Assembly (NCBI RefSeq): GCF_006438965.1
Contig: NZ_RCZM01000004.1
Coordinates: forward strand, 310,001 to 374,000
Direction of reading: 5' to 3'
Length of the DNA: 64,000 nt
Source: Pedococcus bigeumensis
Lineage (GTDB): Bacteria; Actinomycetota; Actinomycetes; Actinomycetales; Dermatophilaceae
Made by a program: the position numbers and the translations under genes. How positions within the stretch are numbered: the first letter of the stretch is position 1; the number at the start of each line of letters is the position of its first letter. Below, piece after piece: positions 440-63,300 of this stretch. The notes beneath the pieces are model-generated. The model searched no databases and was not told the origin of the DNA. It saw only the letters and a program-made list of their open reading frames with translations.

Positions 440-484
440 AGGTATGCCGGTCGGTCCCCACCGCGGGGACCGACCGGCATACCT
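440..484. terminator. Perfect 20-bp stem-loop after serA
   Basis: Bases 440-459 and 465-484 are exact reverse complements with a 5-nt loop (460-464), followed by a short T-rich stretch. It lies between convergent serA and the acetyltransferase gene, so it can terminate both. The stem begins AGGTATGCCG and ends CGGCATACCT, the octamer repeated throughout the window. Confidence 0.85.
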
Positions 485-528
485 GTTTGTGGGGCTTGGC
501 TTGGCTGTGCAGGGCTTGGTCGGCGGGC

Positions 529-1068
529 TCAGCCCCGCGGTGGGCCGTCGTGGAGCACGAGGTTGAACAGGATGCTGTCCTGCCAGGCTCCGTCGAGGTA
601 GAGGAACTCCGGGATCCGCCCGTACTCCTGGAAACCGCACCGCCGCAGCACCTGCTGGGACGGGAGGTTTGCCACGTTCGTGCTGCCCCCGAGGCGGTGC
701 AGGTTGAGTTCGTGCGCGCGCTCGACGAGGAACTCCAGGGTGGCGACGCCCAGGCCGCGCCGCAGGTGGCCGTGGTCGATCCAGTAGCCGACGTCAGCGC
801 CCTGCATGGCGCCACGGACGATGTTCTGCAGGTTCGCCGCACCCACGACGTCGTGACCGTGCCACAGCAGCCAGCAGTCGTAGAGGCCCTGGGCGACCTG
901 GTCGAGGCGCCCGGAGATGGTCTCGCGTTGCCCGGCCTCGGTGAAGAACGCGTCGGGGCGGGTGGGTTCCCAGGGCTTGAGGTGTTCCCGGTTGCGGTCG
1001 TAGGCGGCCGCCAGCGCGGCGGCGTCGTCGAGCGCGAGGCGGCAGACGGTGTAGCCCTCTGGATGCAC
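529..1068 (-). CDS. GNAT family N-acetyltransferase (RimJ/RimL-like)
   Basis: The 179-residue protein starts at GTG 1068. It has the layout of RimJ/RimL-type GNATs, which transfer acetyl from acetyl-CoA to an amine, often a protein N-terminus. Seen: an N-terminal helix with NREHLKPWEP, a central strand segment DVGYWIDHGHLRRGLGVATL containing the R/Q-x-x-G-x-G/A-like CoA pyrophosphate loop, and a C-terminal LRRCGFQEYGRIPE block. Actual substrate cannot be read from sequence. It faces serA convergently and is divergent from the leuB leader region. Confidence 0.85.
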   Translation of the reverse strand: MHPEGYTVCRLALDDAAALAAAYDRNREHLKPWEPTRPDAFFTEAGQRETISGRLDQVAQGLYDCWLLWHGHDVVGAANLQNIVRGAMQGADVGYWIDHGHLRRGLGVATLEFLVERAHELNLHRLGGSTNVANLPSQQVLRRCGFQEYGRIPEFLYLDGAWQDSILFNLVLHDGPPRG

Positions 1069-1134
1069 TGGACCAACCTAGGACACGGGTGACGGAGGGG
1101 CCGCCGCGACACGTGACCGGGGCCACGTCCAGAG

Positions 1135-1144
1135 GTGTCTCACA
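1135..1144 (-). promoter_or_regulatory. TGTGAGACAC motif, copy 1
   Basis: Read on the minus strand this is TGTGAGACAC, identical to copies at 1543-1552 and 14348-14357. It lies between the acetyltransferase and the leuB leader. All three copies sit upstream of branched-chain amino acid genes, so it is a candidate half-site for the NdgR/LtbR-type regulator encoded at 24958-25701. That assignment is inference. Confidence 0.5.
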
Positions 1145-1223
1145 GCGTGGGAAACGGGTGTCGTTTAGTTGGACGTCCACGTAACCTCGAGGACATGACG
1201 CGGCAGGTCGTAATTCTTATTTG

Positions 1224-1260
1224 CCGCGGCGAGTTCCGGTAGTCAGCCCACTCGCCGCGG
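1224..1260 (+). other. Leader hairpin in the gene-free stretch before leuB
   Basis: CCGCGGCGAG (1224-1233) pairs perfectly with CTCGCCGCGG (1251-1260) across a 17-nt loop. The gene-free stretch 1069-1384 also holds an AT-rich patch (about 1211-1222) that could include a -10, and the TGTGAGACAC motif at 1135. I see no start codon with convincing coding sequence before 1385. The stretch is probably the promoter and untranslated leader of the small gene and leuB. Confidence 0.45.
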
Positions 1261-1384
1261 AGATCCCGCGTGCGTGGCTGACAGAGGCGCCCCGTTATCC
1301 GGCGAGTGCCCAGTGCGATTCCGAGAACTCACCCAGACCCGAACCCTGTTGGGACACAGGGACATCCGCAAAGGAATGATTCAG

Positions 1385-1465
1385 ATGAGCGAAGAAGCAG
1401 ACAAGGCACGTCAGGCACTGCAGGAGTCGATGGACCTGCGCGAGCAGGGTCACTCCGACGACTGA
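1385..1465 (+). CDS. Small acidic protein of 26 residues (hypothetical)
   Basis: ATG 1385 is preceded by the purine run AAAGGA (1370-1375) at good spacing; ATG 1376 in the same frame is an alternative giving 29 residues. The product is very hydrophilic, helix-prone and acidic, with no Cys, no membrane segment and no run of branched-chain codons, so it does not look like a leucine-attenuation peptide. It is followed directly by two hairpins and then leuB. I do not recognise a family. It may be a real small protein or a translated leader element. Confidence 0.4.
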
Positions 1466-1483
1466 CGTCGCAGGCGAAATCCT

Positions 1484-1541
1484 CCGCACCGTGTGGGTGC
1501 GGCGACGAACGGCTTCGGGCGACAGTCCGGGGCCGTTCGTC
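1484..1541 (+). terminator. Tandem hairpins between small ORF and leuB
   Basis: Hairpin 1 pairs CCGCACC (1484-1490) with GGTGCGG (1496-1502). Hairpin 2 pairs GACGAACGGC (1504-1513) with GCCGTTCGTC (1532-1541), an exact 10-bp stem. No T-tract follows, so they could terminate the small transcript, act as an attenuator or stabilise mRNA; the sequence alone does not decide. Confidence 0.45.
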
Positions 1542-1542
1542 A

Positions 1543-1552
1543 TGTGAGACAC
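1543..1552 (+). promoter_or_regulatory. TGTGAGACAC motif, copy 2, in leuB promoter region
   Basis: This exact decamer lies 38 bases before the leuB ATG. TATCAG at 1556-1561 is a plausible -10, which would put the motif just upstream of it, a position suited to repression. It is a candidate NdgR/LtbR-type site. Confidence 0.5.
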
Positions 1553-1590
1553 CGGTATCAGATCGCAAGACCGTCCTTAGGCTGGAGAAC

Positions 1591-2661
1591 ATGGCTTCCG
1601 AGAGCACTGGCAACGACACCGTCAACCTCGCCGTCATCGGCGGCGACGGGATCGGTCCAGAGGTCGTGGCCGAGGGGATCAAGGCCCTCGAGACCGTCAC
1701 GGCAGGCACCGGCACCAAGTTCCACACGACGGAGTACGACCTCGGCGCGCGTCGCTGGCACGCCACCGGCGAGACGCTGCCGGACTCGGTCCTGGAGGAG
1801 CTGCGCGGCCACGACGCGATCCTCCTCGGGGCGATCGGCGACCCGACCGTGCCCAGCGGTGTCCTCGAGCGCGGCGTGCTGCTGCCGCTGCGCTTCGCCC
1901 TCGAGCAGTACGTCAACCTGCGTCCCGCGAAGCTCTACCCCGGGGTGCTGAGCCCGCTGGCTGTCGAGCGGGTCGCCCCCGACGGCATCGACTTCGTGGT
2001 TGTCCGCGAGGGCACCGAGGGGCCGTACGTCGGCAACGGTGGGTCGCTGCGCACCGGCACCCCGAACGAGATCGCCACGGAGGTCAGCGTCAACACCCGC
2101 TTCGGTGTCGAGCGGGTCGTCCGTGACGCCTTCACCCGAGCCCAGGCCCGACCGCGTCAGCACCTCACCCTGGTCCACAAGCACAACGTCCTCACCCACG
2201 CCGGTCACCTGTGGCGCCGCACCGTCGAGGAGGTGGGAGCCGAGTTCCCCGAGGTCACCACCGCCTACCAGCACGTGGACGCGGCCACGATCTTCCTTGC
2301 CACCGACCCGGGCCGGTTCGACGTCATCGTCACCGACAACCTCTTCGGCGACATCATCACCGACATCGCGGCAGCCATCGTCGGTGGCATCGGTCTCGCC
2401 GCCAGCGCGAACATCAACCCCGAGCGGACGGCGCCGAGCATGTTCGAGCCGGTCCACGGGTCGGCCCCCGACATCGCCGGCCAGGCCAAGGCCGACCCGA
2501 CCGCCACGATCCTGTCGGTCGGCATGCTGCTCGAGCACCTGGGCCGTCACGACGAGGCTGCCCGGGTCGAGCGCGCGGTCGCGGCCGACCTGGCCGCCCG
2601 CGGGAGCGCGGTACGGTCCACCCCCGAGGTCGGCGACGCCATCGCGTCGCTCCTCGGTTAG
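1591..2661 (+). CDS. leuB: 3-isopropylmalate dehydrogenase
   Basis: LeuB (356 aa) oxidatively decarboxylates 3-isopropylmalate to 2-ketoisocaproate in leucine synthesis. Seen: N-terminal [10 protein letters not shown], the [10 protein letters not shown] substrate loop, [11 protein letters not shown], the metal/substrate segment [11 protein letters not shown] (about residues 247-257), and [12 protein letters not shown] near the C-terminus, all hallmarks of the isopropylmalate/isocitrate dehydrogenase family. ATG 1591 follows CTGGAG at good spacing. ilvE follows on the same strand after about 140 bases. As in Streptomyces, leuB is unlinked from leuCD, which sit 23 kb away. Confidence 0.96.
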
Positions 2662-2802
2662 GGCGCGCCACAGGCGCCCTGTCCTCCGGCGGCGCCCGCC
2701 ACTCCTGCCCGAAGCGCCAGCCGGGACGGGTAATCTCGGCAGGAGACCGTGCACCGCCGCACCGGACTTCATTGGACCGGGCACCCACGTAGGAGGACCC
2801 CC

Positions 2803-3912
2803 ATGAGCCAGACCACCGCCCCGCTGACCTTCGAGGTCACCCGCCGCAACGACCCGCGGCCGGACGTGGAGCGCGAGGCGGTACTGGCGAACCCGGGGTT
2901 CGGCACCACCTTCACCGACCACATGGTCACCGCCATGTGGCGCAAGGGTGAGGGATGGAGCGAGGGCAAGGTCGCGGCATACGGACCGATCACCCTGATG
3001 CCCTCGGCAGCGGTGCTGCACTATGCCCAGGAGATCTTCGAGGGGATGAAGGCCTATCGCCACGCGGACGGGTCGATCTGGACCTTCCGCCCGGAGGCGA
3101 ACGCCCAGCGGATGCAGCGCAGTGCCCGCCGGATGACCCTGCCGGAGCTGCCCGAGGAGGATTTCCTCGGATCGCTGCGCGCCCTCGTCGAGGTCGACCA
3201 GGCGTGGGTGCCCTCCGGCGCGAGTGGCGAGTCGAGCCTCTACCTGCGGCCGTTCATGTATGCGTCCGAGGCCTTCCTGGGCGTGCGCCCTGCGTCCGAG
3301 GTGACCTACTCGGTCATCGCCTCGCCGGCCGGCGCCTACTTCAGCGGCGGCATCAAGCCAGTCACGCTGTGGCTGTCCATCGACTACGCGCGAGCCGGGG
3401 AGGGTGGCACCGGGGCAGCCAAGTGCGGCGGCAACTACGCCTCCAGCCTGGCCGGCCAGCTCGAGGGCATCGAGAACGGCTGCGACCAGGCGGTCTTCCT
3501 CGACGCCTCGACGCACACCTACGTCGAGGAGCTCGGCGGGATGAACCTGTTCTTCGTGACGAAGGACAACAAGCTGATCACGCCCGAGCTCACCGGCTCG
3601 ATCCTCGAGGGCGTCACCCGCTCGTCGGTCCTCGCGCTCGCCAAGGAGATGGGGCTCGAGCCCGAGGAGCGCCGCATCCCCATCCAGGAGTGGAAGGACG
3701 GCGCGGCCAGCGGCGAGATCGTCGAGATATTCGCCTGCGGCACCGCGGCCGTCATCACGCCGGTGGGCGAGCTGCGTTGGGACGGCGGGTCGTGCGACCA
3801 CCGCAACGGGGTCGATTACGGCGAGGTGACGCGCACCATCCGCGAGCGGCTGCTGGACATCCAGTACGGCCGAACCGAGGACACCCACGGATGGCTGACC
3901 CGGTTGGTCTGA
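2803..3912 (+). CDS. ilvE: Branched-chain amino acid aminotransferase
   Basis: IlvE (369 aa) is a fold-type IV PLP enzyme that transaminates the 2-oxo acids of Leu, Ile and Val with glutamate. The start is fixed by AGGAGG eight bases before ATG 2803. Seen: EIFEGMKAYRH near residue 80, the PLP lysine in GAAKCGGNYASS (Lys about 207), EELGGMNLFFV, and the C-terminal GTAAVITPVG cofactor phosphate loop. The last codons run into a 14-bp tandem repeat that continues past the stop codon. Confidence 0.96.
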   Translation: MSQTTAPLTFEVTRRNDPRPDVEREAVLANPGFGTTFTDHMVTAMWRKGEGWSEGKVAAYGPITLMPSAAVLHYAQEIFEGMKAYRHADGSIWTFRPEANAQRMQRSARRMTLPELPEEDFLGSLRALVEVDQAWVPSGASGESSLYLRPFMYASEAFLGVRPASEVTYSVIASPAGAYFSGGIKPVTLWLSIDYARAGEGGTGAAKCGGNYASSLAGQLEGIENGCDQAVFLDASTHTYVEELGGMNLFFVTKDNKLITPELTGSILEGVTRSSVLALAKEMGLEPEERRIPIQEWKDGAASGEIVEIFACGTAAVITPVGELRWDGGSCDHRNGVDYGEVTRTIRERLLDIQYGRTEDTHGWLTRLV

Positions 3913-5660: not shown

Positions 5661-6614
5661 GTGCTGGTTGACCAGTGGCTCGACCGGCTTGCGTGCCTCG
5701 CCGGTCAGGAACGCCGGGTCGATGACCTGCCCGGCGGGCTGACCAACCACAACTACCGGGTCCGGACGGCGACGCACGACGTCGTCGTCCGGATCTCGTC
5801 ACCCACGACCGACCTGCTCGCGGTCAACCGCGAGCACGAGTGGCTCAACAGTCGTGCCGCGGCAGCGGCCGGCGTGGGCGCCCCGGTGGTGGACTACCTT
5901 GCGGGACAGGGCGTCCTCGTTGTCGGCTTCCTCCCAGGTGTGACCTATGCGGCCGCCGACGTGGCCGCCAACCTGCCACGGATCGCTCGTGCCGTACGAC
6001 GCCTGCACGCCGGTCCGGCATTCGCGAACGACTTCGACATCTTCGAGGTCCAGCGCGGGTACCACGAGATCGTCATCCAGCGCGGGCTCCGAGTCCCCGA
6101 GGGGTATGCCGCGCTGGGCGAGTCTGCGGCGCGCGTCGAGGCCGCGCTGCGTCGCCTTCCCGAGCTGCGCGTCCCCTGCCACAACGACCTGTTGGCGGCC
6201 AACTTCCTCGACGACGGCGGCGACATCCGCATCGTCGACTACGAGTACTCCGGCACCAACGAGGCCAGCTTCGAGCTCGGCAACCTCATCAACGAGTCGC
6301 AGCTGGACCACGACCACCTGGTCGAGCTCGTGCGGGCATACTACGGACGGGTGGACCGCCGACTGCTGGCGCGGGCTGAGCTCTGGGGCCTGGCCGGCCG
6401 CTACGCCTGGACACTGTGGGGCGTCATCCAGCACAGCGTCTCCACTGTCGACCACGACTTCTGGGACTTCGCCCTCGAACGCCAGGCCCTCGCTGCCTCG
6501 CTCTTCACCAGTGCGCGGCTCGGCGACCTCCTCGAGGACGCGACGAGCCCATCGCCGCCGGAATCCTCCACGACAGGTCCCTGGCGAGCACTCCGGACCG
6601 GGGACGAGGCGTGA
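5661..6614 (+). CDS. Choline/ethanolamine kinase-like phosphotransferase
   Basis: The 317-residue protein belongs to the APH/choline kinase fold. Seen: the nucleotide-loop segment LPGGLTNHNYRV near residue 25, VVVRISSP with the ATP-contacting position, the catalytic Brenner block CHNDLLAANFLDD (about residues 172-184), and the metal-binding IVDYEYSGTNEASFELGN, the form found in choline/ethanolamine kinases (LicA-like) rather than antibiotic kinases. It starts at GTG 5661, seven bases after the permease stop, and overlaps the next gene by GTGA. In a catabolic operon its substrate is probably an amino alcohol or a derivative of it, but this is inference. Confidence 0.8.
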   Translation: MLVDQWLDRLACLAGQERRVDDLPGGLTNHNYRVRTATHDVVVRISSPTTDLLAVNREHEWLNSRAAAAAGVGAPVVDYLAGQGVLVVGFLPGVTYAAADVAANLPRIARAVRRLHAGPAFANDFDIFEVQRGYHEIVIQRGLRVPEGYAALGESAARVEAALRRLPELRVPCHNDLLAANFLDDGGDIRIVDYEYSGTNEASFELGNLINESQLDHDHLVELVRAYYGRVDRRLLARAELWGLAGRYAWTLWGVIQHSVSTVDHDFWDFALERQALAASLFTSARLGDLLEDATSPSPPESSTTGPWRALRTGDEA

Positions 6615-9079
6615 GCGAGCAGCTGCCGCAACGAGCTCGGGTCGTCATCATCGGTGGCGGGGTGATCGGCTGCAGCGTCGCCTACCACCTGGCCCACCTC
6701 GGCTGGACCGACGTGCTGTTGCTCGAGCAGGGCTCCCTGTCGTGCGGGACGACTTGGCACGCCGCCGGCCTGGTCGGCCAGCTGCGCGCCACCGAGGCCA
6801 GCACGCGGCTGGTGCAGTACTCCACCGAGCTCTACTCGCGTCTCGAGGCCGAGACCGGGCTCGGGACCGGCTACCGGGTCTGCGGTGGCCTGACCGTTGC
6901 CCGCACCGAGGAGCGGATGGTGGCGCTGCGACGCACGGCCGCCAGTGCCGCGGCATACGACCTGGACTGTGAGCTGCTCACCGCCCGCGAGGCGCACGAG
7001 CGCTACCCACTCATCCGCGCCGACGACCTGGTCGGCGCCATCTGGCTGCCCGGCGACGGGCGGGCCGACCCGACCGACCTCACCCAGGCCTTGGCCAAGG
7101 GTGCGCGCATGCGTGGCGTGCAGATCGCCGAACGGGTTCGCGTCACGGATGTGCTCACTGTGGAGGGGCGCGCGAGCGGGGTGCGCACCGACCAGGGCGA
7201 CACCGAGGCCGAGTTCGTCGTGAACTGTGCCGGCCAGTGGGCCAAGGCGGTGGGGGAGATGGTCGGCGTCACCGTGCCGCTGCACTCGGCCGAGCACTTC
7301 TACGTCGTCACCGAACAGATCGAGGGGGTCCACCGAGACCTGCCGATCCTGCGCGACCCCGACGGCTACACCTACGTCAAGGAGGAGGTCGGCGGACTGC
7401 TCGTGGGCGGCTTCGAGCCGGAGGCCAAGCCGTGGGTGGCGCCGGACCAGATCCCGTACCCGTTCGAGTTCGCGCTGCTGGATGAGGACTGGGAGCACTT
7501 CGAGATCCTGATGGACAGCGCCGTCCACCGGCTCCCGGTGCTGGCCGAGACCGGGATCCGCAAGTTCTACAACGGACCCGAGAGCTTTACCCCCGACAAC
7601 CAGTTCATCATCGGGGAGGCCCCGGAGCTGGCCGGCTTCTTCGTCGCAGCCGGGTTCAACTCGGTGGGCATCGCGTCCGCTGGTGGGGCAGGGCGGGCGC
7701 TCGCCGAGTGGATCGTCGAGGGGCAGCCGACGACCGACCTGATCAGCGCCGACATCCGCAGGTTCTCCCCGCTGGCGGGCAACAACGACTGGCTGCGCCG
7801 GCGCGTGGGGGAGGTGCTCGGGCTGCACTACGCCGTGCCGTGGCCCAACCGCGAGCTGGAGACCGGTCGGCCCCTGCGGCGGTCACCGGTCCACGACCTG
7901 GTCCTCGACCAAGGCGCGTGCCTCGGCAGTCGCAACAACTGGGAACGTCCCAATGTCTTTGCACCCCAGGGTGTTCCGCTGGTCATCGAGTACTCATGGG
8001 AGCGTCCGACCTGGGTCGACTGGTCGGTCGCGGAGCAGCGTGCGACGCGGGAAGCAGTCGCGGTCTTCGACCAGACCTCGTTCTCGAAGTACCTCGTCGT
8101 GGGGCCCGGTGCCGAGCGCGCGCTGCAGTGGGTCTGCTCCGCAGATGTCGGTGTGCCGGAGGGCCGTGCGGTCTACACCGGGATGCTCAACGCGCTCGGC
8201 AGCTACGAGTCCGACGTGACGGTGACGAGGACTGCGCCCGACGAGTTCTTCGTGGTCAGCAGCGCGGCGACGACGGTGCGCGACATCGACTGGATGCGTC
8301 GCCACTTCCCGAGCGATGCGGCGGCGCACGTCGTCGACCTCACGAGCTCGTATGCCGTGTTCGGCGTGATGGGTCCGAGGTCACGCGAGCTGCTGGAGCG
8401 GCTGTCGCCTGATGCGTTCGACGATGCGTCGTTTCCCTTTGCCACCAGTCGCGAGGTGCGCATCGGGCAGGCCACCGTGCGGGCGACGCGGATCACCTAC
8501 GTGGGCGAGCTGGGCTGGGAGCTGTACGTCCCGACCGACCTCGCCGCAGGTGTCTATCAGGACCTGTTCAGGGCCGGCAGCGACCTCGGCGTCGTCCCAG
8601 CGGGCTACTACACGATCGAGGCGATGCGCCTGGAGAAGGGGTATCGCGCCTTTGCCCGAGAGCTGACCACCGAGACCGGACCGGTGGTGGCGGGACTGAC
8701 CTTCGCGTGCAAGCTCGGGACTGACATCGACTTCCTGGGCCGTGCCGCTGTGGAGGATTCGCGGTTGACCCCGCCCGCGCGGCGGATCGTTTCCTTCGTG
8801 GTCGGTGACCCCGCGGCATACCCGTGGGGTGGGGAGCTGGTGCTGCGCGACGGCGAGCCAGTCGGCCAGGTGACCAGCGCGGCGTGGGGCGCCACGGTCG
8901 GCGCGGGGGTCGGGCTGGCCCTGGTGGGGGACCGGGCATCGGGCGCGACAACAGTGGACTGGGTGCGGGGCGGCAGCTACGAGATCGACCTGGCGGGGAA
9001 GCGGTACCCGGTGACGGTGGGTCTCCGTCCGCCGTTCGACCCCGAAGGCCACAAGCTGGCCCGTGAGAACCGCGACTGA
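6611..9079 (+). CDS. GcvT-fused FAD oxidase, dimethylglycine/sarcosine dehydrogenase-like
   Basis: The 822-residue protein has an N-terminal FAD/DAO oxidase domain (VVIIGGGVIGCS at residues 11-22; His50 in GTTWHAAGL matches the histidine that binds FAD covalently in dimethylglycine dehydrogenase), then the FAO linker, then a C-terminal GcvT-type tetrahydrofolate domain (YVGELGWELYVP, IEAMRLEKGYRAF). Family members oxidatively demethylate N-methylated glycines or amines and pass the one-carbon unit to folate. The GTG 6611 start overlaps the kinase stop. Next to a gamma-glutamyl amine pathway it could remove N-methyl groups before or after the ligase step. The true substrate is not readable. 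Confidence 0.85.
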   Translation: MSEQLPQRARVVIIGGGVIGCSVAYHLAHLGWTDVLLLEQGSLSCGTTWHAAGLVGQLRATEASTRLVQYSTELYSRLEAETGLGTGYRVCGGLTVARTEERMVALRRTAASAAAYDLDCELLTAREAHERYPLIRADDLVGAIWLPGDGRADPTDLTQALAKGARMRGVQIAERVRVTDVLTVEGRASGVRTDQGDTEAEFVVNCAGQWAKAVGEMVGVTVPLHSAEHFYVVTEQIEGVHRDLPILRDPDGYTYVKEEVGGLLVGGFEPEAKPWVAPDQIPYPFEFALLDEDWEHFEILMDSAVHRLPVLAETGIRKFYNGPESFTPDNQFIIGEAPELAGFFVAAGFNSVGIASAGGAGRALAEWIVEGQPTTDLISADIRRFSPLAGNNDWLRRRVGEVLGLHYAVPWPNRELETGRPLRRSPVHDLVLDQGACLGSRNNWERPNVFAPQGVPLVIEYSWERPTWVDWSVAEQRATREAVAVFDQTSFSKYLVVGPGAERALQWVCSADVGVPEGRAVYTGMLNALGSYESDVTVTRTAPDEFFVVSSAATTVRDIDWMRRHFPSDAAAHVVDLTSSYAVFGVMGPRSRELLERLSPDAFDDASFPFATSREVRIGQATVRATRITYVGELGWELYVPTDLAAGVYQDLFRAGSDLGVVPAGYYTIEAMRLEKGYRAFARELTTETGPVVAGLTFACKLGTDIDFLGRAAVEDSRLTPPARRIVSFVVGDPAAYPWGGELVLRDGEPVGQVTSAAWGATVGAGVGLALVGDRASGATTVDWVRGGSYEIDLAGKRYPVTVGLRPPFDPEGHKLARENRD

Positions 9080-9879: not shown

Positions 9880-11247
9880 ATGACCACACCACCCCGGCTC
9901 ACCGTCGAGGAGCTGAAGGCGGACATCGTCGCAGGCACCATCGACACCGTGATCGTCGCGTTCACGGACATGCAGGGGCGCCTGCAGGGCAAACGCCTGC
10001 ACGGCCACTACTTCCTGGACCACGCCCTCGCCCACGGCACGGAGGGGTGCAACTACCTGCTCGCCGTCGACGTCGACATGAACACCGTCGGCGGCTACGC
10101 CATCAGCTCGTGGGAGCGCGGGTACGGCGACATGATGTTCGACCTCGACCTCTCGACGCTGCGCCGTACACCAGGGCAGCCGGGCTCGGCGATGGTCCAG
10201 TGCGACCTGTCCTGGCTCGACGGGAGCGGGCCGGTCCGCCCGTCGCCGCGGTCGGTGCTCAAGGCGCAGGTCGATGCGGCCGCTGAGCTCGGCTTCGTGG
10301 CCCTGGCCGGTACCGAGCTGGAGTTCATCGTCTTCGAGGACACCTACGAGCAGGCATGGGACGGGCGCTACCAGGGGCTCACGCCGGCCAACCGTTACAA
10401 CGTCGACTACTCGATTCTCGGGGGCTCGAGGGTCGAGCCCCTCCTGCGCGACATCCGCAACGAGATGTATGCCGCGGGAGCGACCGTGGAGAGCGCGAAA
10501 GGGGAGTGCAACCACGGTCAGCACGAGATCGGGTTCCTCTACGACGACGTCCTGCGTACCTGTGACGTGCACGCGGTCTACAAGAACGCGGCCAAGGAGA
10601 TCGCCGCCGCCCATGGGAAGTCGCTGACCTTCATGGCCAAGTACGACGCGCTCGAGGGCAACTCCTGCCACGTGCACCTCTCGCTGCGCGGCTCCGACGG
10701 TGCCATCTCGTTCGCCGACTCGGCCCGCGAGGGTGGACGGAGCGAGCTGTTCGACCACTTCCTCGCCGGCATGCAGGCGACACTGCGCGAGTTCACCTGC
10801 TTCTACGCACCGAACATCAACTCCTACAAGCGGTTCCAGTCGGGCAGCTTCGCGCCCACGGCAGTCGCCTGGGGCACCGACAACCGGACCTGCGCACTGC
10901 GGGTGGTAGGGCATGGTGCCGGCCTGCGCGTCGAGAACCGGGTGCCCGGTGGGGACATGAACCCCTACCTCGGCGTCGCCGCCATGCTGGCCGGTGGGCT
11001 GCACGGCATCCGTGAGCGACTCGAGCTCGAACCAGCCTTCGAGGGCAACGCCTACGCCTCGGACCGCGAACGCGTCCCGGGCACGCTCGCGCAGGCCCGC
11101 GACCTGCTCGCCGGTTCGCAGGTCGCGCGGGCAGCCTTCGGTGAGGACGTGGTGGCGCACTACGTCAACCACGCCGACGTGGAGCTGGCCGCTTTCAATG
11201 CCGCCGTCACCGACTGGGAACGGATCAGGGGGTTCGAGCGGCTGTGA
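9880..11247 (+). CDS. Glutamine synthetase-like gamma-glutamyl amine ligase
   Basis: The 455-residue enzyme has the GS fold: N-terminal beta-grasp, GTELEFIV (metal glutamates), GECNHGQHEIGF, NSCHVHLS, the ATP/phosphate segment KRFQSGSFAPTAVAWG with NRTCALRV, and ENRVPGGDMNPYL. It lacks the housekeeping-type adenylylation loop seen in GlnA1 as far as I can tell, and clusters with catabolic genes, as do PuuA and GlnA4, which join glutamate to putrescine or ethanolamine using ATP. The expected reaction is glutamate plus amine plus ATP giving gamma-glutamylamide. It overlaps the aldehyde dehydrogenase start by four bases (GTGA). Confidence 0.88.
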   Translation: MTTPPRLTVEELKADIVAGTIDTVIVAFTDMQGRLQGKRLHGHYFLDHALAHGTEGCNYLLAVDVDMNTVGGYAISSWERGYGDMMFDLDLSTLRRTPGQPGSAMVQCDLSWLDGSGPVRPSPRSVLKAQVDAAAELGFVALAGTELEFIVFEDTYEQAWDGRYQGLTPANRYNVDYSILGGSRVEPLLRDIRNEMYAAGATVESAKGECNHGQHEIGFLYDDVLRTCDVHAVYKNAAKEIAAAHGKSLTFMAKYDALEGNSCHVHLSLRGSDGAISFADSAREGGRSELFDHFLAGMQATLREFTCFYAPNINSYKRFQSGSFAPTAVAWGTDNRTCALRVVGHGAGLRVENRVPGGDMNPYLGVAAMLAGGLHGIRERLELEPAFEGNAYASDRERVPGTLAQARDLLAGSQVARAAFGEDVVAHYVNHADVELAAFNAAVTDWERIRGFERL

Positions 11248-16134: not shown

Positions 16135-17565
<1,431 letters not shown>

Positions 17566-40270: not shown

Positions 40271-40371
40271 GGCCGTGGGGTGAACACACGGCATACGCTC
40301 CGCCCGTCCTTGCCGTGGCTGGAAGTGGGGGAGGCGCGGATACTGGCGTGCATGACCAGGCACGTGAGCCA

Positions 40372-51936: not shown

Positions 51937-51954
51937 GTGCGCTACCTTGCCGCC

Positions 51955-52530
51955 GTGACTCGGATCATCAGTGGGCGCGCCGGCGGCATGCGGCTGGCCA
52001 CCCCGGCCGGCTCCGGCACCCGACCGACGAGCGACCGGGTCCGGGAGGCCCTCTTCTCGCGCCTCGAGCACCTCGAGGTCCTCCTCGGTGCCCGAGTGCT
52101 GGACCTGTATGCCGGCTCGGGTGCCCTCGGTCTCGAAGCCGCCAGCCGGGGCGCGGTGAGCGTGCTGCTCGTGGAGTCGGACAAGGGCGCCGCGAAGGTG
52201 GCGCAGCAGAACGCGGGGGCACTCGGCATACCCGGGATCACGGTGCGGCACACCACCGTTCAGAAGGCGCTGGCCGCAGCGCCGGCGCAGCCGCAGACCT
52301 TGGTGTTCCTCGACCCACCCTACGAGCTGAGCGAGGAGGCGCTGGCCGCAGACCTCGCGGCCCTCGCAGACCAGCAGTGGCTCGACCGCGAGGCGCTCGT
52401 GGTCGTCGAGCGGTCCTCGCGATCACCCGAACCGGCCTGGCCCGAGGCGCTCGAGCTGGAGGGGGAGCGCCGCTACGGCGAGACGAAGATCTGGTTCGCC
52501 GGTCCTCGGGTCCCCGACGTCGTCGCGTGA
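51955..52530 (+). CDS. rsmD: 16S rRNA (guanine(966)-N2)-methyltransferase
   Basis: RsmD (191 aa) methylates G966 of 16S rRNA with S-adenosylmethionine. Seen: TRIISGRAGGMRLATP start, TRPTSDRVREALFSRLEH, the SAM motif VLDLYAGSGALGLEAASRG, and catalytic LDPPYEL (about residues 118-124). GTG 51955 is chosen over an upstream in-frame GTG 51937 because it lies six bases after TACCTT and matches the family start. coaD normally follows; here HesB-like and hemerythrin-like genes intervene. Confidence 0.93.
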   Translation: MTRIISGRAGGMRLATPAGSGTRPTSDRVREALFSRLEHLEVLLGARVLDLYAGSGALGLEAASRGAVSVLLVESDKGAAKVAQQNAGALGIPGITVRHTTVQKALAAAPAQPQTLVFLDPPYELSEEALAADLAALADQQWLDREALVVVERSSRSPEPAWPEALELEGERRYGETKIWFAGPRVPDVVA

Positions 52531-54227: not shown

Positions 54228-56363
54228 CTGACCTCGAAATCCCCACGGCCGGAACGCTTTCGGCCCGACATCGAGGGGCTGCGAGCCATCGCCGTCCTGC
54301 TCGTGATGACCTACCACGCGGGCGTTCCGCTGCAGAACGGCTTCCTTGGGGTCGACGTCTTCTTCGTCATCTCCGGCTTCCTCATCACCAGCATCCTCGT
54401 CCGCGAGCTCCTCACCACCGGCACGATCAGCTGGGCCCGCTTCGTCGGACGCCGGATCCGCCGCCTGCTCCCTGCCGCGATCCTCGTCCTCGTCGTCACC
54501 GCCCTCGTGGCCTGGTTCGCCGTCCCCGGCCTGCGCCGCCGGGAGATCGGCACCGACATCGCAGGCGCAGCCCTCTACGTCGTCAACTGGGTCTTCTCGC
54601 ACCGCGCCGTCGACTACCTCGCCTCGGACAGCATCCCCTCGCCGGTGCAGCACTTCTGGTCGCTGGCGGTCGAGGAGCAGTTCTACGTCATCTGGCCGCT
54701 GGCCCTGATCGCGCTCGCGCTCGTCCTGCGCCGGCTGGGTCGGCGTCCCAGCGTGCCCGCGGTGGGCGCGCTGCTGGCCGCCATCGCCGTTCCGTCCTTC
54801 GGGTATGCCGTGTGGCTGGGAGCCGTCGACCCGGCGCGGGCCTACTTCGTCACCACCACCCGCGCGTGGGAGCTGGGCGTCGGCGCGGCGCTCGCCGTCT
54901 GGTGCGCGGGCAGGGAGGCGCCGACGCGGCATACCCACGCAGGCTCCGGCTCCGATGGTGGCGCACGCGAAGGCGTCGCCAGAGCAGCCGGTAGTCCCGC
55001 AGTCGCCGCCGTGATCGGCTGGGTAGGGCTGGTCTCGGTCATCGGCGCTGCCTGCTGGCTGCCGTCAGGCGCGGTCACGCCGGGGGCGTGGACGCTGCTC
55101 CCGACCGTCGGCGCCGCCGCCGTCCTCTATGCCGGCTGGACCGGCACTCCCCATGGCCCGGTCCGGGTCCTCGGCACCGCGCCGATGGTCTGGATCGGCG
55201 GGCTGTCCTACTCGCTCTACCTCTGGCACTGGCCGGCCCTCATCCTCAGTGAGTGGGCGTTCGACGGGCTCAGCCAAGCCCAGCAGGCGCTCGTCGTCGC
55301 GCTCGCGGTGGTGCCCGCCTGGCTGAGCCACCGGTTCCTCGAGAGCCCGATCCACCACAGCAAGGCCCTGGCCGCCCGCACCCGGCCCGTCCTGGCGATG
55401 GGGCTCGCGCTCTCGGCCGTCGGCGCCCTGGCTGCGCTGCCGCTGACCCACGCGGCGTCGCCGTTCCGAACCACGCCCCTGGCCGGCGCTCGCCCCGCCC
55501 TCGAAACCCTCGGCGCGGCGACCCTCACCTCACCGCCCAGCACCGACCCCGCGGCCTATGCCATCGACGACTGGGAGTGGCTGACGCCGGATCCGCAGCT
55601 CTCCGGCAAGGACCGGCCCAAGGCCGATGTCGACCGGTGCCAGGTCGACCGGGTGGTCGAGGAGCCGGTCGCCTGCGAGTTCGGTGTGGCCGGGGGAGCG
55701 ACCACCGTCGCCCTCGTCGGTGACTCCAAGGCGATGCAGTGGCTGCCCGCGCTCGAACGGCTGGCGCCCGCACGTGGCTGGCGCATCGTGACCTACGGCA
55801 AGTCCGCCTGCACGTTCGCCGCGGGCCACGCCCAGAACGCGGGCAAGGCCTACCCGGCGTGCGACGAGTGGAACCGCCGCGTCGTGGACCGGCTGCGCGC
55901 CGACCCCCCCGACCTCCTGCTGACCTCCGGGTATGCCGGGTCCGCCTGGGACGGCGCCCGCGCCACCCGTGGCGCGTTGGTGGCCGGTCTGTCCGACCGG
56001 TGGACTCAGCTGCGGGACGCCGGTGTGCCGGTCGTGGTCCTCGGGGACAGCCCGCTGTCGCCCAACGACCTTGACGTCTGCACGGCCCGACACCCGCACC
56101 AGCTGAGCCGCTGCGCCTTCGACCGGGACCCAGCGGTCGCGGGGAGCGGGCTGCCCGCCCAACGCGAGGCGACCACAGCGTCGGGCACGCCGCTGGTCGA
56201 CCTCACGGCCTGGATCTGCCCGGTCCCGAGGTGCCCCGTCGCCATCGGGAACGTCGCCATCCACCGCCCTGGCGACCACCTCACCGCGACCTATGTCCGC
56301 ACCCTGGCGCCGGTCCTGGGAGCGGCACTGGACCGCGGGCTACCCTCGGCTGCTGCCCGCTGA
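54228..56363 (+). CDS. Acyltransferase-3/SGNH fusion (OafA-like O-acyltransferase)
   Basis: About 710 residues: an N-terminal acyltransferase-3 membrane domain of roughly ten helices (RPDIEGLRAIAVLLVMTYHAG; GFLGVDVFFVISGFLIT; FWSLAVEEQFYVIWPL) and a C-terminal SGNH domain (VALVGDSKAMQWL; RPGDHLTATYVR). Such proteins O-acylate cell-surface glycans. No ATG, GTG or TTG lies near the expected start: CTG 54228, with GGGAG seven bases upstream and one base after the coaD stop, fits best; ATG 54159 would overlap coaD by 68 bases. Block I reads GDSK where GDSH is more usual. Confidence 0.88.
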   Translation: MTSKSPRPERFRPDIEGLRAIAVLLVMTYHAGVPLQNGFLGVDVFFVISGFLITSILVRELLTTGTISWARFVGRRIRRLLPAAILVLVVTALVAWFAVPGLRRREIGTDIAGAALYVVNWVFSHRAVDYLASDSIPSPVQHFWSLAVEEQFYVIWPLALIALALVLRRLGRRPSVPAVGALLAAIAVPSFGYAVWLGAVDPARAYFVTTTRAWELGVGAALAVWCAGREAPTRHTHAGSGSDGGAREGVARAAGSPAVAAVIGWVGLVSVIGAACWLPSGAVTPGAWTLLPTVGAAAVLYAGWTGTPHGPVRVLGTAPMVWIGGLSYSLYLWHWPALILSEWAFDGLSQAQQALVVALAVVPAWLSHRFLESPIHHSKALAARTRPVLAMGLALSAVGALAALPLTHAASPFRTTPLAGARPALETLGAATLTSPPSTDPAAYAIDDWEWLTPDPQLSGKDRPKADVDRCQVDRVVEEPVACEFGVAGGATTVALVGDSKAMQWLPALERLAPARGWRIVTYGKSACTFAAGHAQNAGKAYPACDEWNRRVVDRLRADPPDLLLTSGYAGSAWDGARATRGALVAGLSDRWTQLRDAGVPVVVLGDSPLSPNDLDVCTARHPHQLSRCAFDRDPAVAGSGLPAQREATTASGTPLVDLTAWICPVPRCPVAIGNVAIHRPGDHLTATYVRTLAPVLGAALDRGLPSAAAR

Positions 56364-56499
56364 GGACGGTCGCACGCGCCCGGGCGACGACGCGGCATAC
56401 CCGCGCATTTGGGGGAGTGACCTGTGCTCCGGTAATCTCGTGCGTCGGTCTTGTCCTCGCCCGAGGTGCAGTCCGAGTCACTCGACGTCTGCTGGAGCC

Positions 56500-57378: not shown

Positions 57379-58197
57379 ATGCAGCGGCCCGTCGACGGGT
57401 TTGTCCAGCACCTCACCGAGGTGGTGGGCAAACCCGTCGACGAGTCGCTGCTTTCGCGTGCCCTCACGCACCGCTCGTACGCGTACGAGAACGGTGGCCT
57501 GCCCAACAACGAGCGCCTTGAGTTCCTCGGCGACTCGGTGCTCGGGCTCGTGGTCACCGACACGTTGTATGCCGCGCACCCGGACCTTCCCGAGGGCCAG
57601 CTCGCGAAGCTGCGTGCTGCCGTGGTGAACATGCGTGCGCTGGCCGACGTGGCCCGCACGCTGGGGCTGGGTGACCACGTGATGCTGGGCCGTGGCGAGG
57701 AGAGCACCGGTGGTCGCGACAAGGCCTCGATCCTCGCCGACACGATGGAGGCCGTCATCGGGACGGTCTACCTGTCCTGCGGGATGGGCGCCGCCGCGAA
57801 CCTCGTGCACCATCTGCTCGACCCGCTGATGGCGGCGAGTGCGACGTTGGGCGCCGGCCTGGACTGGAAGACCAGCCTCCAGGAACTGTCCGCGTCCACC
57901 GTCCAGGGCGTTCCCGAGTACCGCGTCGAGGAAGAAGGCCCCGACCACGAGAAGACCTTCCACGCGCAGGCTGTCGTGGGCAACGAGGTCCTCGGCACCG
58001 GCACCGGCCGGTCCAAGAAGGAAGCCGAGCAGCGCGCTGCCGAGCTCGCCTGGCGGGCGCTCGACTCACGGGCTGCCGAGCTGGCCAACCCCGGTTCGAC
58101 CGGCGCCGGCGCAGACTCCGTCGCCGTTGGGTCCGCTGGGCCCGCTGCCGCTGACGCGCTGGCCGACGAGGACGCCGTGGCGGGCTCGCCCTCCTAG
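57379..58197 (+). CDS. rnc: Ribonuclease III
   Basis: RNase III (272 aa from ATG 57379) cleaves double-stranded RNA in rRNA and mRNA processing. Seen: [10 protein letters not shown], the signature [18 protein letters not shown] (about residues 44-61), [19 protein letters not shown] (second acidic cluster), and a double-stranded RNA-binding domain ([13 protein letters not shown] ... [18 protein letters not shown]). The tail of about 45 residues is Ala/Gly-rich. GGGGGA before ATG 57379 favours it over GTG 57331. Confidence 0.94.
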
Positions 58198-58271
58198 GCG
58201 AGCGCCCGGCATACCCACGTCTTTGACGCCCGAGCCGCAGGGGTGTCGGCCACGCATGCTTGAGTTGGCCC

Positions 58272-59530: not shown

Positions 59531-59691
59531 CATTTCGGTCGCTTTCGATCGCAGGTCAGTCCACGTGACCGGAGGTGAACTCATCGGTCTGCCATTGACC
59601 GGCCGGGGTCCGGGTGTCAGTCTGAGAGATGCCCGGTTCGGGCACACCCGCAGCACGCGATCCCCCCGACGTCTGCGGAGAAGGAGTCGAC

Positions 59692-59883
59692 ATGGCCAAG
59701 GCCCTGGTGGGCTATCGCGTGGCGTCTGACCCGCGACTGATGCTCGAGACCGTCGAACTGCGCCGCCGCGTGCGTGACCTCGAGTACCTCGTCGAACGGT
59801 TGCAGCGTGACAACGACCAGCTACGCGAAGATCTGAGACAGCCCGCCACCGTGGCAGCGGGCATGCCTACGATTGCCGGGTGA
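59692..59883 (+). CDS. Small coiled-coil protein (63 aa, hypothetical)
   Basis: ATG 59692 follows GAGAAGGAG. The product starts MAKALVGYRVASDPRLMLE, then forms a heptad-rich helix (VELRRRVRDLEYLVERLQ) and a short tail. Its stop overlaps the GTG start of the chorismate mutase gene by four bases, so the two are translationally coupled. No family function known to me. Confidence 0.75.
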   Translation: MAKALVGYRVASDPRLMLETVELRRRVRDLEYLVERLQRDNDQLREDLRQPATVAAGMPTIAG

Positions 59884-60236
59884 GTTCGCCCGCACAGACA
59901 CCCAGTTCCGCACCAGGTTCAGGGCCACGCATTCCATCGGGTTCAGGACCCCGTTCGACACCCGACGATCTCGTGCGCCTGCGCGCCAGCATCGACAACG
60001 TCGACGCGGCCCTGATCCACCTGCTCGCCGAGCGGTTCAAGTGCACCCAGCAGGTGGGCGAGCTCAAGGCCCGCGAGGGTATGCCGCCCGCTGACCCCGC
60101 GCGCGAAGAGTCCCAGATCGCGCGGTTGCGCGACCTCGCCGACCAGGCCGGGCTGGACCCGACGTTCGCCGAGAAGTTCCTCAACTTCGTGATCGCCGAG
60201 GTCATCCACCACCACGAAGCCATCGCCGGCTCCTGA
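59880..60236 (+). CDS. Chorismate mutase (AroQ class)
   Basis: The 118-residue protein has a Pro/Ser-rich N-terminus (residues 1-28) and an AroQ helical domain: LRASIDNVDAALIHLLAERFKCTQQVGELKA (catalytic Arg and Lys), AREESQIARLRDLADQAGL and FLNFVIAEVIHHH. It converts chorismate to prephenate for Phe/Tyr synthesis, unless it acts only as a structural partner of another shikimate enzyme. GTG 59880 overlaps the upstream stop. Confidence 0.9.
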   Translation: MSSPAQTPSSAPGSGPRIPSGSGPRSTPDDLVRLRASIDNVDAALIHLLAERFKCTQQVGELKAREGMPPADPAREESQIARLRDLADQAGLDPTFAEKFLNFVIAEVIHHHEAIAGS

Positions 60237-60381
60237 CCGCGCGGCATACCTCTGGCGTCACTCCTGTCTCACGGTGCACAGGCAACGCAGGACGGTGGAA
60301 GGTGCGGGGAGCGCGCCGGTCCCGCGGGTACAGTGGCCGCGATCAGACCCCGCCAGCAACTCACCAGGAGCCGAGCCGCTC

Positions 60382-63300
60382 GTGTACGTCAAGAGCCTGA
60401 CCCTGAAGGGCTTCAAGTCCTTCGCCTCGGCGACCACGATGCGCCTCGAACCCGGCATCACCTGCATCGTCGGGCCCAACGGCTCCGGCAAGTCCAACGT
60501 CGTCGACGCGCTCGCGTGGGTGATGGGGGAGCAGGGCGCCAAGAGCCTGCGCGGCGGCAAGATGGAGGACGTCATCTTCGCCGGCACCGCCGGTCGGGCA
60601 CCGCTGGGCCGCGCCGAGGTGGCACTCACGATCGACAACACCGACGGCGCGCTGCCGATCGACTACACCGAGGTCACCATCGCCCGGACGATGTTCCGTA
60701 ACGGTGGCTCGGAGTACGCCATCAACGGCACCTCCTGCCGACTGCTCGACGTCCAGGAGCTGCTGTCCGACTCCGGCATCGGCCGCGAGATGCACGTCAT
60801 CGTCGGCCAGGGCCAGCTCGACGCCGTGCTGCGCGCCACTCCCGAGGAGCGCCGCGGCTTCATCGAGGAGGCCGCCGGCGTCCTCAAGCACCGCAAGCGC
60901 AAGGAGAAGGCGCTCCGCAAGCTCGAGTCGATGGACGCCAACCTCACCCGCGTCAACGACCTCACCGGCGAGATCCGCCGCCAGCTCGGTCCGTTGGGCC
61001 GCCAGGCCGAGGCCGCCCGCAAGGCCGCCGTCGTCCAGGCCGACGCCCGCGACGCCCGGCTGCGGCTGCTTGCCGACGACCTCGTCCAGCTCACCTCGAC
61101 CCTCGAGCAGGAGGTCGCCGACGAGTCCGCGCTGATCGCCAAGCGCACCGAGGTCGAGGACGGCCTGACCACCCTGCGCAGCCGCCTCGCCACCCTGGAA
61201 GAGCAGGCGCAGGACGCCGCTCCCGAGCTGGCCAAGGCTCAGGAGCGCTGGTTCGCCCTCCAGCAGCTGCGCGACAAGCTCACCTCCACCGAGTCGCTGG
61301 CCGCCGAACGCGTCCGCCTGCTCTCCCAGGACAGCCAGGACGAGCAGACCTCGGGCCGAGACCCCGAGGAGCTCCGCGCCCAGGCCGTCGAGGCGCGCAA
61401 GCAGGAGGAAGCCCTGCTCGCCGAGGTGGGCGAGGCCAAGACCGAGCTCGAAGCCGCCACCGCAGCGCGTGCGGCCGCAGAGCAGGCGTATGCCGCGGAG
61501 CAGCAGCGCCTCCAGCGGCTCGTCCGCGCAGCCGCTGACCGTCGCGAGGGGCTGGCCAAGCTGGCCGGCCAGGTCGGCGCCCGCAGGAGCCGTCTCGAGG
61601 CCGGTGAGGCCGAGATCGGTCGACTCCGTGGGGTCATCGAGCAGTCCTTGCAGCGCGCCGCCGCCGCGGAGCAGGAGTTCCAGACGCTCGAAGCCTCCGT
61701 CGCCGTCGACGAGGAGGGTGAGGAAGGGCTGGACTCGGCCTACGAGAAGGCCGCCGCCATCCTCGAGCAGGTCGAGGCCGAGGTCGAGAAGCACCGCGAG
61801 GCCGAGCGCCTCGCCGAGCGCGACCGCACCAGCGGCACCGCCCGGCTCGAAGCTCTCGAGCTCAGCCTGTCCCGCAAGGACGGCGCCGCCACGCTCCTCG
61901 CTGCCGCAGACTCCAAGCACGGCATCGTCGGGTCGGTCGCGTCGCTGCTCCAGGTCAAGGGCGGGCACGAGGCCGCCATCGCCGCCGCTCTCGGCTGGGC
62001 GGGTGACGCCCTGGCCGTCGAGTCGGTCGAGCACGCCGCCCGCGCCCTCACCACGCTGCGCGCCGACGACGCCGGTCGGGCTGCGTTCCTCGTCGGGCAG
62101 ACCGCGTCGTCGAGCGACCCGTCGACCTGGCCACGGCTCGAGGGCTCGGCTGTCTGGGCCCGCGAAGTCGTCGAGGCGCCTGCCACGGTCCGTCCTGCCG
62201 TCGAGCAGCTGCTCGAACGGGTCGCCCTCGTCTCCGACCCCGCTCTGGCTGCTGCGCTCGTAGCGAGTGGTGAGGGCATCACCGCGGTGACCACCGACGG
62301 CGACGTGTTCGCCCCCGGCTTCGTCCGCGGCGGCAGCAGCCACGCGCCGAGCCTCATCGAGATCCAGTCGGCCGTTGACGAGACGCGCGACCGCGTCGCC
62401 GACGCGACCCGCCGCGGCGAGCAGGCACGGTTCGCCCTGACCGCCGCGCAGGAGCGGCACCGGGTCGCCAGCGACGACGTCGAGCACGCCCTCGAGCGGC
62501 TGCACGACTCCGACGCCAAGATGGCCGCCGTTGCCGAGCGACTCGGTCACCTCGGCGCCACCGTCCGGTCCGCCAAGGCCGAGGCGGAGCGCACCGAACG
62601 CTCGATCGCCGATGCGACGGCCGCCCTCGAGACCGACCGCGTCGAGCTCGCCGGAATGACCGAACGCCTCGACGAGGCCAGCGCCGAACCGACCGAGTCG
62701 CAGGACCCCGGCACCGACGAGCGCGACCGCCTCGAGCTCGAGGCCAGCCGTGGTCGCACGGCCGAGACCGAGCTCCGGCTCACGCTGCGCACCAAGGAGG
62801 AACGGGCTCGCGCCCTCAAGGGCCGCGCGGACTCCCTCGAAGGCGCTGCCCGCAACGAGCTGGCCGCCCGCCAGCGACTGGCCGCCCGCCAGGAACGCCG
62901 CAAGCGCGAGGCCACGGTGGCCGAGGCGGTGCGACGCGGCGCGGCATACGCGAGCACGCTCATCGCCACCACCCTCGACACCGCAGCCCGCAAGCGCACC
63001 AGTGCGGAGCAGGAGCGCACCGAGCGCGACCAGGCCCTCACCGTGGTGCGCCGCGACGTCGCCGCCCTCCAGGACGACCTGCGCGAGCTCACCGACACGG
63101 TGCACCGCGACGAGGTGGCCCGCACCCAGCAGGTGCTGCGGATCGAGGCCCTGCAGGCCAAGGCCGTCGAGGAGCTCGGCATCTCGCCGGAGGCGCTGAT
63201 GGAGGACTTCGGTCCGCACCAGCTCGTGCCGTTCGTCGTCGGGCCGGACGACAACCCCGACGAGATCCCCGAGCCCGGACCCTACGTCCGCGAGACGCAG

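Follow-up and report, generated by a model that had tools for sequence, protein, structure and literature searches.

The 64-kb stretch of the Pedococcus bigeumensis genome analyzed here (64,000 nucleotides, hereafter the window) carries 45 exact copies of an octamer, 22 written GTATGCCG and 23 written CGGCATAC on the opposite strand. The word is real and under selection, marks many members of a single family, the Dermatophilaceae, and has dialects there; the original prediction, made from the letters of the window, was correct in its observation and understated the case. Copies in the same orientation avoid one another over about 1 kb and copies in opposite orientations do not, a feature that the original prediction missed. 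We consider it a real possibility, a little short of an even chance, that GTATGCCG is an uptake-type self-DNA recognition word with a directional reader, dense in much of the Dermatophilaceae. We call it uptake-sequence-like and not an uptake sequence, since its function is putative and one of its spacing properties departs from the uptake yardstick. We found no description of the word in the titles and first lines of abstracts of the best-ranked papers on uptake sequences (in actinobacteria and Gram-positive bacteria, and in this family), iterated octamers, strand preference, or AdnAB and Chi, a coverage that excludes most subscription papers and bioRxiv. A text search for the word itself likewise had no title on the topic among the best 20 of 3142 papers.

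Abundance of the octamer

GTATGCCG/CGGCATAC is the most overrepresented octamer of the window, with 45 copies where a strand-symmetric third-order Markov model predicts 2.1. An earlier estimate by eye of about 45 copies thus agrees with the exact count, and the seven positions quoted with it (442, 475, 2975, 6104, 6951, 8350, and 10467) are all correct. The whole 4.22-Mb source genome (G000; other G numbers denote comparison genomes) has 2551 copies, 1264 forward and 1287 reverse, or a mean of about one per 1.65 kb, while the reversed word, taken as a control, occurs 74 times (35 + 39).

A Markov count had been proposed along with the original prediction, and on two parts of the genome, of 464 and 560 kb, the excess persists at orders three, four, and five. 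The 464-kb part contains 292 copies against 13.9 expected from a third-order model and 185 from a fifth-order model, the latter trained on sequence that includes the word; in the fifth-order ranking GTATGCCG is third and the overlapping word TATGCCGC is first. With a fourth-order model from whose training the copies were masked, the 560-kb part has 348 copies against 7.2 expected. Most one-letter variants of the core occur in G000 about as often as expected, the clearest excess being that of GTATGCGG (12 vs. 3.7).

Selection on the DNA word

The original prediction held that selection acts on the DNA word and not on the protein. Codon usage, conservation at orthologous sites, and distribution in the family all support this. 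Genes were called with a simple codon-usage caller that was trained on G000 and is poor for lower-G+C genomes such as G024. By this crude measure 207 of the 292 copies in 464 kb lie wholly inside genes, where they are read as TAT-GCC (106), GCA-TAC (54), GGC-ATA (22), ATG-CCG (16), CGG-CAT (7), and GTA-TGC (2). As for the earlier statement that copies occur in all reading frames, the 464 kb has all six readings and the window five of them. The word accounts for 106 of the 286 TAT codons (37%) and 22 of the 41 ATA codons (54%) in this part of the genome. At its 120 G-Tyr-Ala-G contexts TAT-GCC is used 106 times and TAC-GCC eight times, against an overall TAC:TAT ratio of 2415:286. The remaining 85 copies are not wholly coding, even though such sequence makes up 11.2% of the 464 kb, so there is an intergenic excess as well.

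Comparison with G002/L004 (Knoellia koreensis) over 44 orthologue pairs found 16 of 22 words identical, with one further word falling in a gap, vs. 1365 of 5917 background octamers; the codon TAT is kept in nine of 11 cases inside the word and in two of 16 outside it. The corresponding numbers in three small samples are 4/5 vs. 566/1554 (Soil802), 4/6 vs. 133/1334 (G013), and 3/5 vs. 160/1142 (G014).

Strand balance and orientation-specific spacing

Forward and reverse counts over 82 enriched genomes agree better than chance (root-mean-square z 0.77, compared with 1.01 for reversed words in 91 genomes), and the strand counts in long pieces (62:69, 85:76, 95:91, 54:65, and 103:100) have no bias. 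Nor is any strand consistently favored across 24 blocks, each of 20 kb at most, although one block is 10 to 1; the origin and terminus were not located. Copies in G000 are spaced more evenly than random: the coefficients of variation are 0.68 and 0.70, and the lowest values reached by 2000 random placements are 0.75 and 0.77, with variance-to-mean ratios of 0.34 and 0.21 in 20-kb windows.

The two orientations behave very differently at intermediate range. Same-orientation pairs 60-900 bp apart number 17 in the 560 kb against 92.8 expected (ratio 0.18), whereas opposite-orientation pairs number 87 against 91.4 (ratio 0.95). None of 3000 permutations of the orientation labels reached the observed 17 (mean 51.0), and 158 control octamers have a mean ratio of 1.06 with a minimum of 0.57. 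The deficit is found both inside genes (7 same, 49 opposite) and elsewhere (10 same, 38 opposite). It recurs in G002 (46 vs. 76.9 expected; 0/3000 permutations), in G014 (46 vs. 65.0; 2/3000), and in the GTATGCG dialect of G030 (16 vs. 29.5; 1/3000), and is weaker in the GGATGCCG dialect of G427 (21 vs. 28.7; 53/3000). Orientation-specific exclusion is thus significant in four of the five word-rich genomes permuted, with G427 as a weaker sixth.

At closer range, within 60 bp, the same 348 copies form 20 pairs in the order GTATGCCG...CGGCATAC, two in the opposite order and no direct pairs, with 3.3 expected per order; G002 has seven and none (3.2 expected each). Fourteen of the 15 intergenic plus-then-minus pairs in 464 kb adjoin at least one gene 3′ end, and the other lies in a divergent gap. 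Such gaps comprise 29.9% of gap bases, and the scarcity of pairs there has a binomial p of 0.036.

Distribution in the family and dialects

The gpsA gene of the window places the genome in the Dermatophilaceae, near Pedococcus: it matches loci of Pedococcus, Phycicoccus, Knoellia, and further family members at 86-65% identity, and a few loci of other phyla at no more than 43%. Of the 58 nearest genomes, the 11 from this genus all carry the word densely (625 to 3986 copies); it is enriched in 12 of 25 from other genera of Dermatophilaceae, and in none of 22 from other families of the order. A wider set of 149 Dermatophilaceae genomes divides into 82 enriched, 13 intermediate, and 54 not enriched, where a genome counts as enriched with 400 copies or more and a count no less than 2.5 times that of the reversed word (our own thresholds), and 30 of the 53 sampled genera have at least one enriched member. 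In genera g26 and g56 enriched species stand beside nearly empty ones: G469 has 19 copies and the other sampled species of g26 have 1062-3681, and G521 has 37 with 1251-1660 in the other sampled species of g56. In named loci of up to 21 kb the density per 10 kb is 5.7-9.5 words in Knoellia, about 5 in Arsenicicoccus, 1.9-3.3 in four Pedococcus-like loci, and 0-0.5 in Phycicoccus sensu stricto, Janibacter massiliensis, Marihabitans, Humibacillus, and two Nostocoides. High-G+C relatives have almost no copies. Word-bearing genomes stand in both main branches of a LeuS tree of 25 family genomes (one gene, midpoint root), and so we read the word as an old trait that has been lost several times.

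In some genera GTATGCCG is replaced by one-letter dialects, GTATGCG and GGATGCCG. The sole clear case of the first among the 58 genomes is G030 (Nostocoides sp. F2B08), which has 196 copies of GTATGCCG vs. 125 of the reversed word, but 1889 of GTATGCGS vs. 186. The second reaches 2099 to 4480 copies vs. 200 to 439 in seven of the 149 genomes, from genera g17, g48, and g65, and has a background of roughly 240-1340 copies in the remaining genomes. It ranks first among the octamers of an 80-kb sample of G427 (85 vs. 9.4), and two genomes with this dialect, G444 and G478, also have GTATGCCG (1217 and 1189 copies).

Within the genus of P. bigeumensis the core has a weaker, one-sided extension, about G-GTATGCCG-Y-G-T-G-G-N-C, which is seen also in intergenic copies outside hairpins, sites that are free of codon constraint. 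The 65 copies of this kind in G000 have G at -1 (0.63), C or T at +1 (0.77), G at +2 (0.71), G at +4 and +5 (0.69 each), and C at +7 (0.60). The flanks in G002 are like those in G000, and those in G013, G014, and Knoellia differ; G427 has a flank of its own, with G at +1 (0.56), G at +5 (0.64), and C at +6 (0.56).

Copies in the window

The copies in the window are listed below, each line being one copy unless it is marked as a pair. The original prediction had the word capping three intergenic hairpins; the three hairpins are real and fold better than their shuffles, but the word sits in the stem and not in the cap. It had also placed GGC-ATA, with its rare ATA codon, in rsmD and thiL, and both copies are there, in a thiL-like gene (46136) and an rsmD-like gene (52224).

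442-482, inverted pair GTATGCCG (442-449) ... CGGCATAC (475-482), intergenic, between two genes that both end here; RNA fold -50.4 kcal/mol, 0/200 shuffles as good
22648-22677, inverted pair GTATGCCG (22648-22655) ... CGGCATAC (22670-22677), intergenic, just past a gene end at 22641; RNA fold -38.5 kcal/mol, 0/200 shuffles as good
24902-24936, inverted pair GTATGCCG (24902-24909) ... CGGCATAC (24929-24936), intergenic, at the end of a minus-strand gene; RNA fold -46.0 kcal/mol, 0/200 shuffles as good
2975-2982, minus, coding, GCA-TAC
6104-6111, plus, coding, TAT-GCC
6951-6958, minus, coding, GCA-TAC
8350-8357, plus, coding, TAT-GCC
8814-8821, minus, coding, GCA-TAC
10467-10474, plus, coding, TAT-GCC, in a glutamine-synthetase-like gene
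12397-12404, minus, coding, GCA-TAC
14151-14158, minus, coding, CGG-CAT
14923-14930, plus, coding, TAT-GCC
16287-16294, minus, coding on the minus strand, TAT-GCC
18742-18749, minus, no gene called at the site
19247-19254, plus, no gene called at the site
19914-19921, plus, coding, TAT-GCC
20532-20539, plus, coding, TAT-GCC
27480-27487, plus, coding, TAT-GCC
27869-27876, minus, coding, GCA-TAC
31180-31187, minus, coding, ATG-CCG
34278-34285, minus, coding, ATG-CCG
34918-34925, plus, coding, TAT-GCC
36519-36526, plus, coding on the minus strand, GCA-TAC
37592-37599, minus, coding, ATG-CCG
39254-39261, plus, intergenic
40289-40296, minus, intergenic
43254-43261, plus, intergenic
46136-46143, minus, in the thiL-like gene (AIRS domain), GGC-ATA, rare ATA codon
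46576-46583, plus, intergenic
49078-49085, minus, in a recG-like gene, GCA-TAC
52107-52114, plus, in the rsmD-like gene (Cons_hypoth95), TAT-GCC
52224-52231, minus, in the rsmD-like gene, GGC-ATA, rare ATA codon
54803-54810, plus, coding, TAT-GCC
54927-54934, minus, coding, CGG-CAT
55931-55938, plus, coding, TAT-GCC
56393-56400, minus, intergenic
57567-57574, plus, coding, TAT-GCC
58207-58214, minus, intergenic
60079-60086, plus, coding, ATG-CCG
60242-60249, minus, intergenic
61488-61495, plus, coding, TAT-GCC
62942-62949, minus, coding, GCA-TAC

Other repeated words

Ten copies of GCCAAGAAGG lie between 28644 and 29043 of the window in a single reading frame (their spacings are all multiples of 3). 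They raise one of the window's next strongest word families and look like the Lys/Ala-rich tail of one protein, which we take to be HU-like, and not like a dispersed signal. A structured repeat, TCTGTGCACAGA ... CTGCGCA ... CTGCGC ... CTGTGCACAGA, with its outer boxes about 61-64 bp apart, occupies about 51863-51940 of the window and is found again near 225780, 258996, and 278281 of contig C8 of G000; 264 kb of C8 thus contain four copies, and 200 kb of C1 have no copy. In a genome from another family of the order (G053, C1 28082-31265) there are 53 copies of the variant GTATGCGG with a period of 61-62 bp, probably a clustered regularly interspaced short palindromic repeat (CRISPR) array whose repeat contains the word.

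Competence-type genes and the search for a reader

The P. bigeumensis genome encodes ComEC, adjoined by a protein with SLBB and helix-hairpin-helix domains in the layout of ComEA, and a ComF-like protein whose TIGR00201 match is below the cut-off. A Flp/Tad locus is flanked on one side by an LpqB-type lipoprotein gene and on the other by the comF-like gene. A second Tad locus has a TadA that scores over the TIGR03819 cut-off and a 45-residue DUF4244 pilin-like protein, which by eye resembles the Micrococcus luteus Flp printed in PMC6370729 (excerpt). In M. luteus, Flp pili and ComEA/ComEC have been linked to competence (PMC6370729 and PMC4322843, excerpts). The longest word-free stretch in the 560 kb, of 11.1 kb (L106 7535-18651, on C1 of G000), holds most of the Flp/Tad locus, which would suit a locus that came late or changes quickly. 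In G005, a word-rich genome of the same genus, ComEC appears as two neighboring partial matches (C1 1517076-1517881), either because the gene is broken or through an error in sequencing.

No reader gene was found among five gene families (ComEC, PilM, T2SSE, TadA, and RecC), as none of them marks out the word-bearing genomes; T2SSE ATPases do not track the word among the matches listed. Inspection by eye of the com loci of 28 genomes, G000 included, and of eleven Tad loci found no gene that is present in every word-bearing genome and in no word-free one, and some genes of these loci are common to a few word-bearing genomes.

A possible role in DNA uptake

From the word's abundance, the selection on it, its distribution, its dialects, and its orientation-specific spacing we tentatively infer natural transformation, a reader, and a polarity of import. 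The word would be bound by a reader that belongs to the competence machinery, at the surface or in the membrane, and that favors import of word-bearing DNA; the imported DNA would then recombine, so that copies spread and are maintained. Either the reader or a step after it should be directional, each copy serving one strand or one flank, and single-strand import through ComEC would be the natural place for such polarity. Directionality is suggested because same-orientation copies look redundant within about 1 kb and opposite ones do not. If a reader of double-stranded DNA were blind to direction, any nearby second copy would be redundant, the pattern found in the uptake signal sequence (USS) genome described below; if it led one given strand or flank inward, only same-orientation copies would be redundant, the pattern of G000 on a scale of about 1 kb. 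The per-strand spacing thus hints at a directional reader. The stronger claim, that a Gram-positive phylum has here its first self-DNA word of the uptake type, one that is old in its family, has dialects, and is read strand-specifically, so that recognition is coupled to single-strand import and a per-strand spacing rule is left in the genome, is one we hold more doubtfully, as an attractive possibility that is somewhat less likely than not.

We used one genome as the yardstick for each of two known systems, G310 for the USS and Escherichia coli MG1655 for Chi. G310 is the one AAGTGCGGT-dense genome (1270 copies of this Haemophilus-type USS word) among 369 from the class of a Halomonas locus, and its 308-kb sample leaves out 2.5 kb of a small contig. 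It has 12 plus-then-minus inverted pairs within 60 bp and two in the other order. Three hundred kb of MG1655 contain 74 Chi sites that are strand-biased (19:1, 1:7, 6:12, 5:10, and 1:12), with no inverted pair within 60 bp and, for this small number of sites, no exclusion (12 same-orientation pairs at 60-600 bp vs. 7.3 expected).

A number of points weigh against an uptake word with a directional reader. We know of no member of the Dermatophilaceae that is naturally transformable, and none appears among the best 20 of 32, 20 of 763, and 15 of 55 papers on uptake sequences in actinobacteria or Gram-positive bacteria and in this family. ComEC does not track the word, being present in 57 of 58 genomes with or without it, nor does TadA, which is over the TIGR03819 cut-off in 135 of 149 genomes, word-free ones included; the word-rich G014, 99% complete, has four weaker T2SSE matches and no TIGR03819 match at E 1e-90. 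PilM of type IVa pili is found in two of the 36 family genomes and is absent from G000, so a ComP-like pilin of a type IVa pilus is unlikely as the reader. The word-rich G013 has no same-orientation deficit (44 vs. 48.5; 630/3000 permutations), and the weakest conservation at orthologous sites, 5/17 vs. 786/3377 background octamers, is that against G010/Soil748, the member of the genus with the fewest words. There is no excess of inverted pairs in G013 (1, 1), G014 (2, 4), G030 (2, 1), or G427 (3, 2); the excess is found only in G000 and G002 and is, on this sample, a trait of the genus and not of the family. Finally, USS neighbors at 60-600 bp in G310 are depleted both ways (same 0.50, opposite 0.63), with no effect of the orientation labels (839/3000 permutations), and USS orientation is reported to have no effect on uptake (PMC1939737, excerpt), so that uptake sequences are not known to show such an orientation effect.

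Other explanations

The main rival to an uptake word is a Chi-like hotspot, read from one side by a helicase-nuclease of the AdnAB or AddAB type as it resects broken ends. With one-sided reading each strand would need evenly spaced copies of its own, which would explain the per-strand spacing directly; the asymmetry of the word fits such a role too, as does its approximate length. RecC matches are missing in 26 of the 36 family genomes (G000-G035) and are rarer in the word-rich ones (3/23 vs. 7/13 of the others; Fisher p 0.018, kinship uncorrected), which helps a little because another resection enzyme would fit it, although RecC itself is absent from G000. The word is, however, strand-balanced in long pieces where E. 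coli Chi is strand-biased, Chi has neither the inverted pairs nor the same-orientation exclusion (74 sites, 300 kb), and dialects, an intergenic excess, and pairs in one order would not be expected of a hotspot. We judge this explanation unlikely, though it deserves serious consideration.

Two further explanations seem to us improbable, and about equally so. The word could be a methylated strand mark, made by a methyltransferase that modifies one strand and used by a repair system, with both strands needing copies every kilobase or two. Separate spacing on each strand would follow. Methyltransferase specificities change easily, and this would give dialects and patchy loss, but the one-order pairs of G000 and the weak 3′ extension would be left unexplained. 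Alternatively, it could be a chromosome-organization or replication word, recognized by a nucleoid protein or used in segregation, by primase, or in a fork-related role. The regular spacing in 20-kb windows fits this; the lack of a consistent strand skew in the 24 blocks does not, nor does the absence of the word from species of g26 and g56 whose other sampled species have it. A by-product of codon usage or composition, or a set of transcription terminators only, has in its favor the three pairs in the window that fold as stable stems at gene ends, but it is contradicted by the genic location of 207 of 292 copies, many with rare codons, by codon usage and orthologous-site conservation, and by the near absence of the word in high-G+C relatives, and we dismiss it as very improbable.

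Significance

To our knowledge, self-specific uptake words are established only in the Neisseriaceae and Pasteurellaceae, both of which have an outer membrane. If GTATGCCG is an uptake word, it would be a third, independent case, in an actinobacterial family, with its own dialects and apparent repeated losses, and would allow the evolution of such words to be followed under different cell envelopes. A reader could then be sought by setting word-bearing species against word-free relatives, and G469 and G521, with their congeners, make good pairs for finding one that was lost. The per-strand spacing rule is a genomic readout of directionality that could be tried on any iterated word. Should the word prove Chi-like, a family largely without RecC matches (26/36 genomes) would have a hotspot of unusual density and strand balance, which would be of interest too.

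Comparison with known systems

The original prediction compared the word with HIP1 of cyanobacteria, with uptake sequences, and with chromosome-architecture motifs. HIP1 (GCGATCGC) is a highly iterated palindromic octamer, and the likeness ends with the iteration and the length: GTATGCCG is not its own reverse complement and its hosts are Dermatophilaceae, not cyanobacteria. Uptake sequences are the best of these analogies, because the word is non-palindromic and strand-symmetric, is in excess between genes, is evenly spaced, and varies by dialect; within its own genus there are also the inverted pairs close to gene ends.

Chi of E. coli (GCTGGTGG) is also an asymmetric octamer and is read directionally, but in MG1655 it differs from GTATGCCG in strand bias and in the lack of inverted pairs and exclusion. 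The USS of Pasteurellaceae consists of a core plus a weaker flank, like the core and extension here, and resembles the word in density, strand balance, and the preference for plus-then-minus pairs (12 to 2 in G310); its exclusion in G310 is different, being regardless of orientation. In one H. influenzae strain USS pairs occur in both orders (PMC7811141, excerpt). The DNA uptake sequence (DUS) of Neisseriaceae is likewise a numerous, short, non-palindromic word with family-internal variants, close inverted repeats that act as terminators, and an intergenic excess (PMC3630211 and PMC2397512, excerpts), and its spacing in Neisseria matches the size of conversion fragments (PMC2397512, excerpt). 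A strand preference with single-stranded donors in Neisseria is cited in PMC12061091 (excerpt). The differences from the DUS are that the P. bigeumensis word is another one, in a high-G+C actinobacterium whose genome has no type IVa PilM, and that its exclusion is orientation-specific. In its anatomy the word thus appears closer to an uptake sequence than to Chi, and it adds one feature, exclusion within an orientation, that has no parallel in the uptake yardstick.

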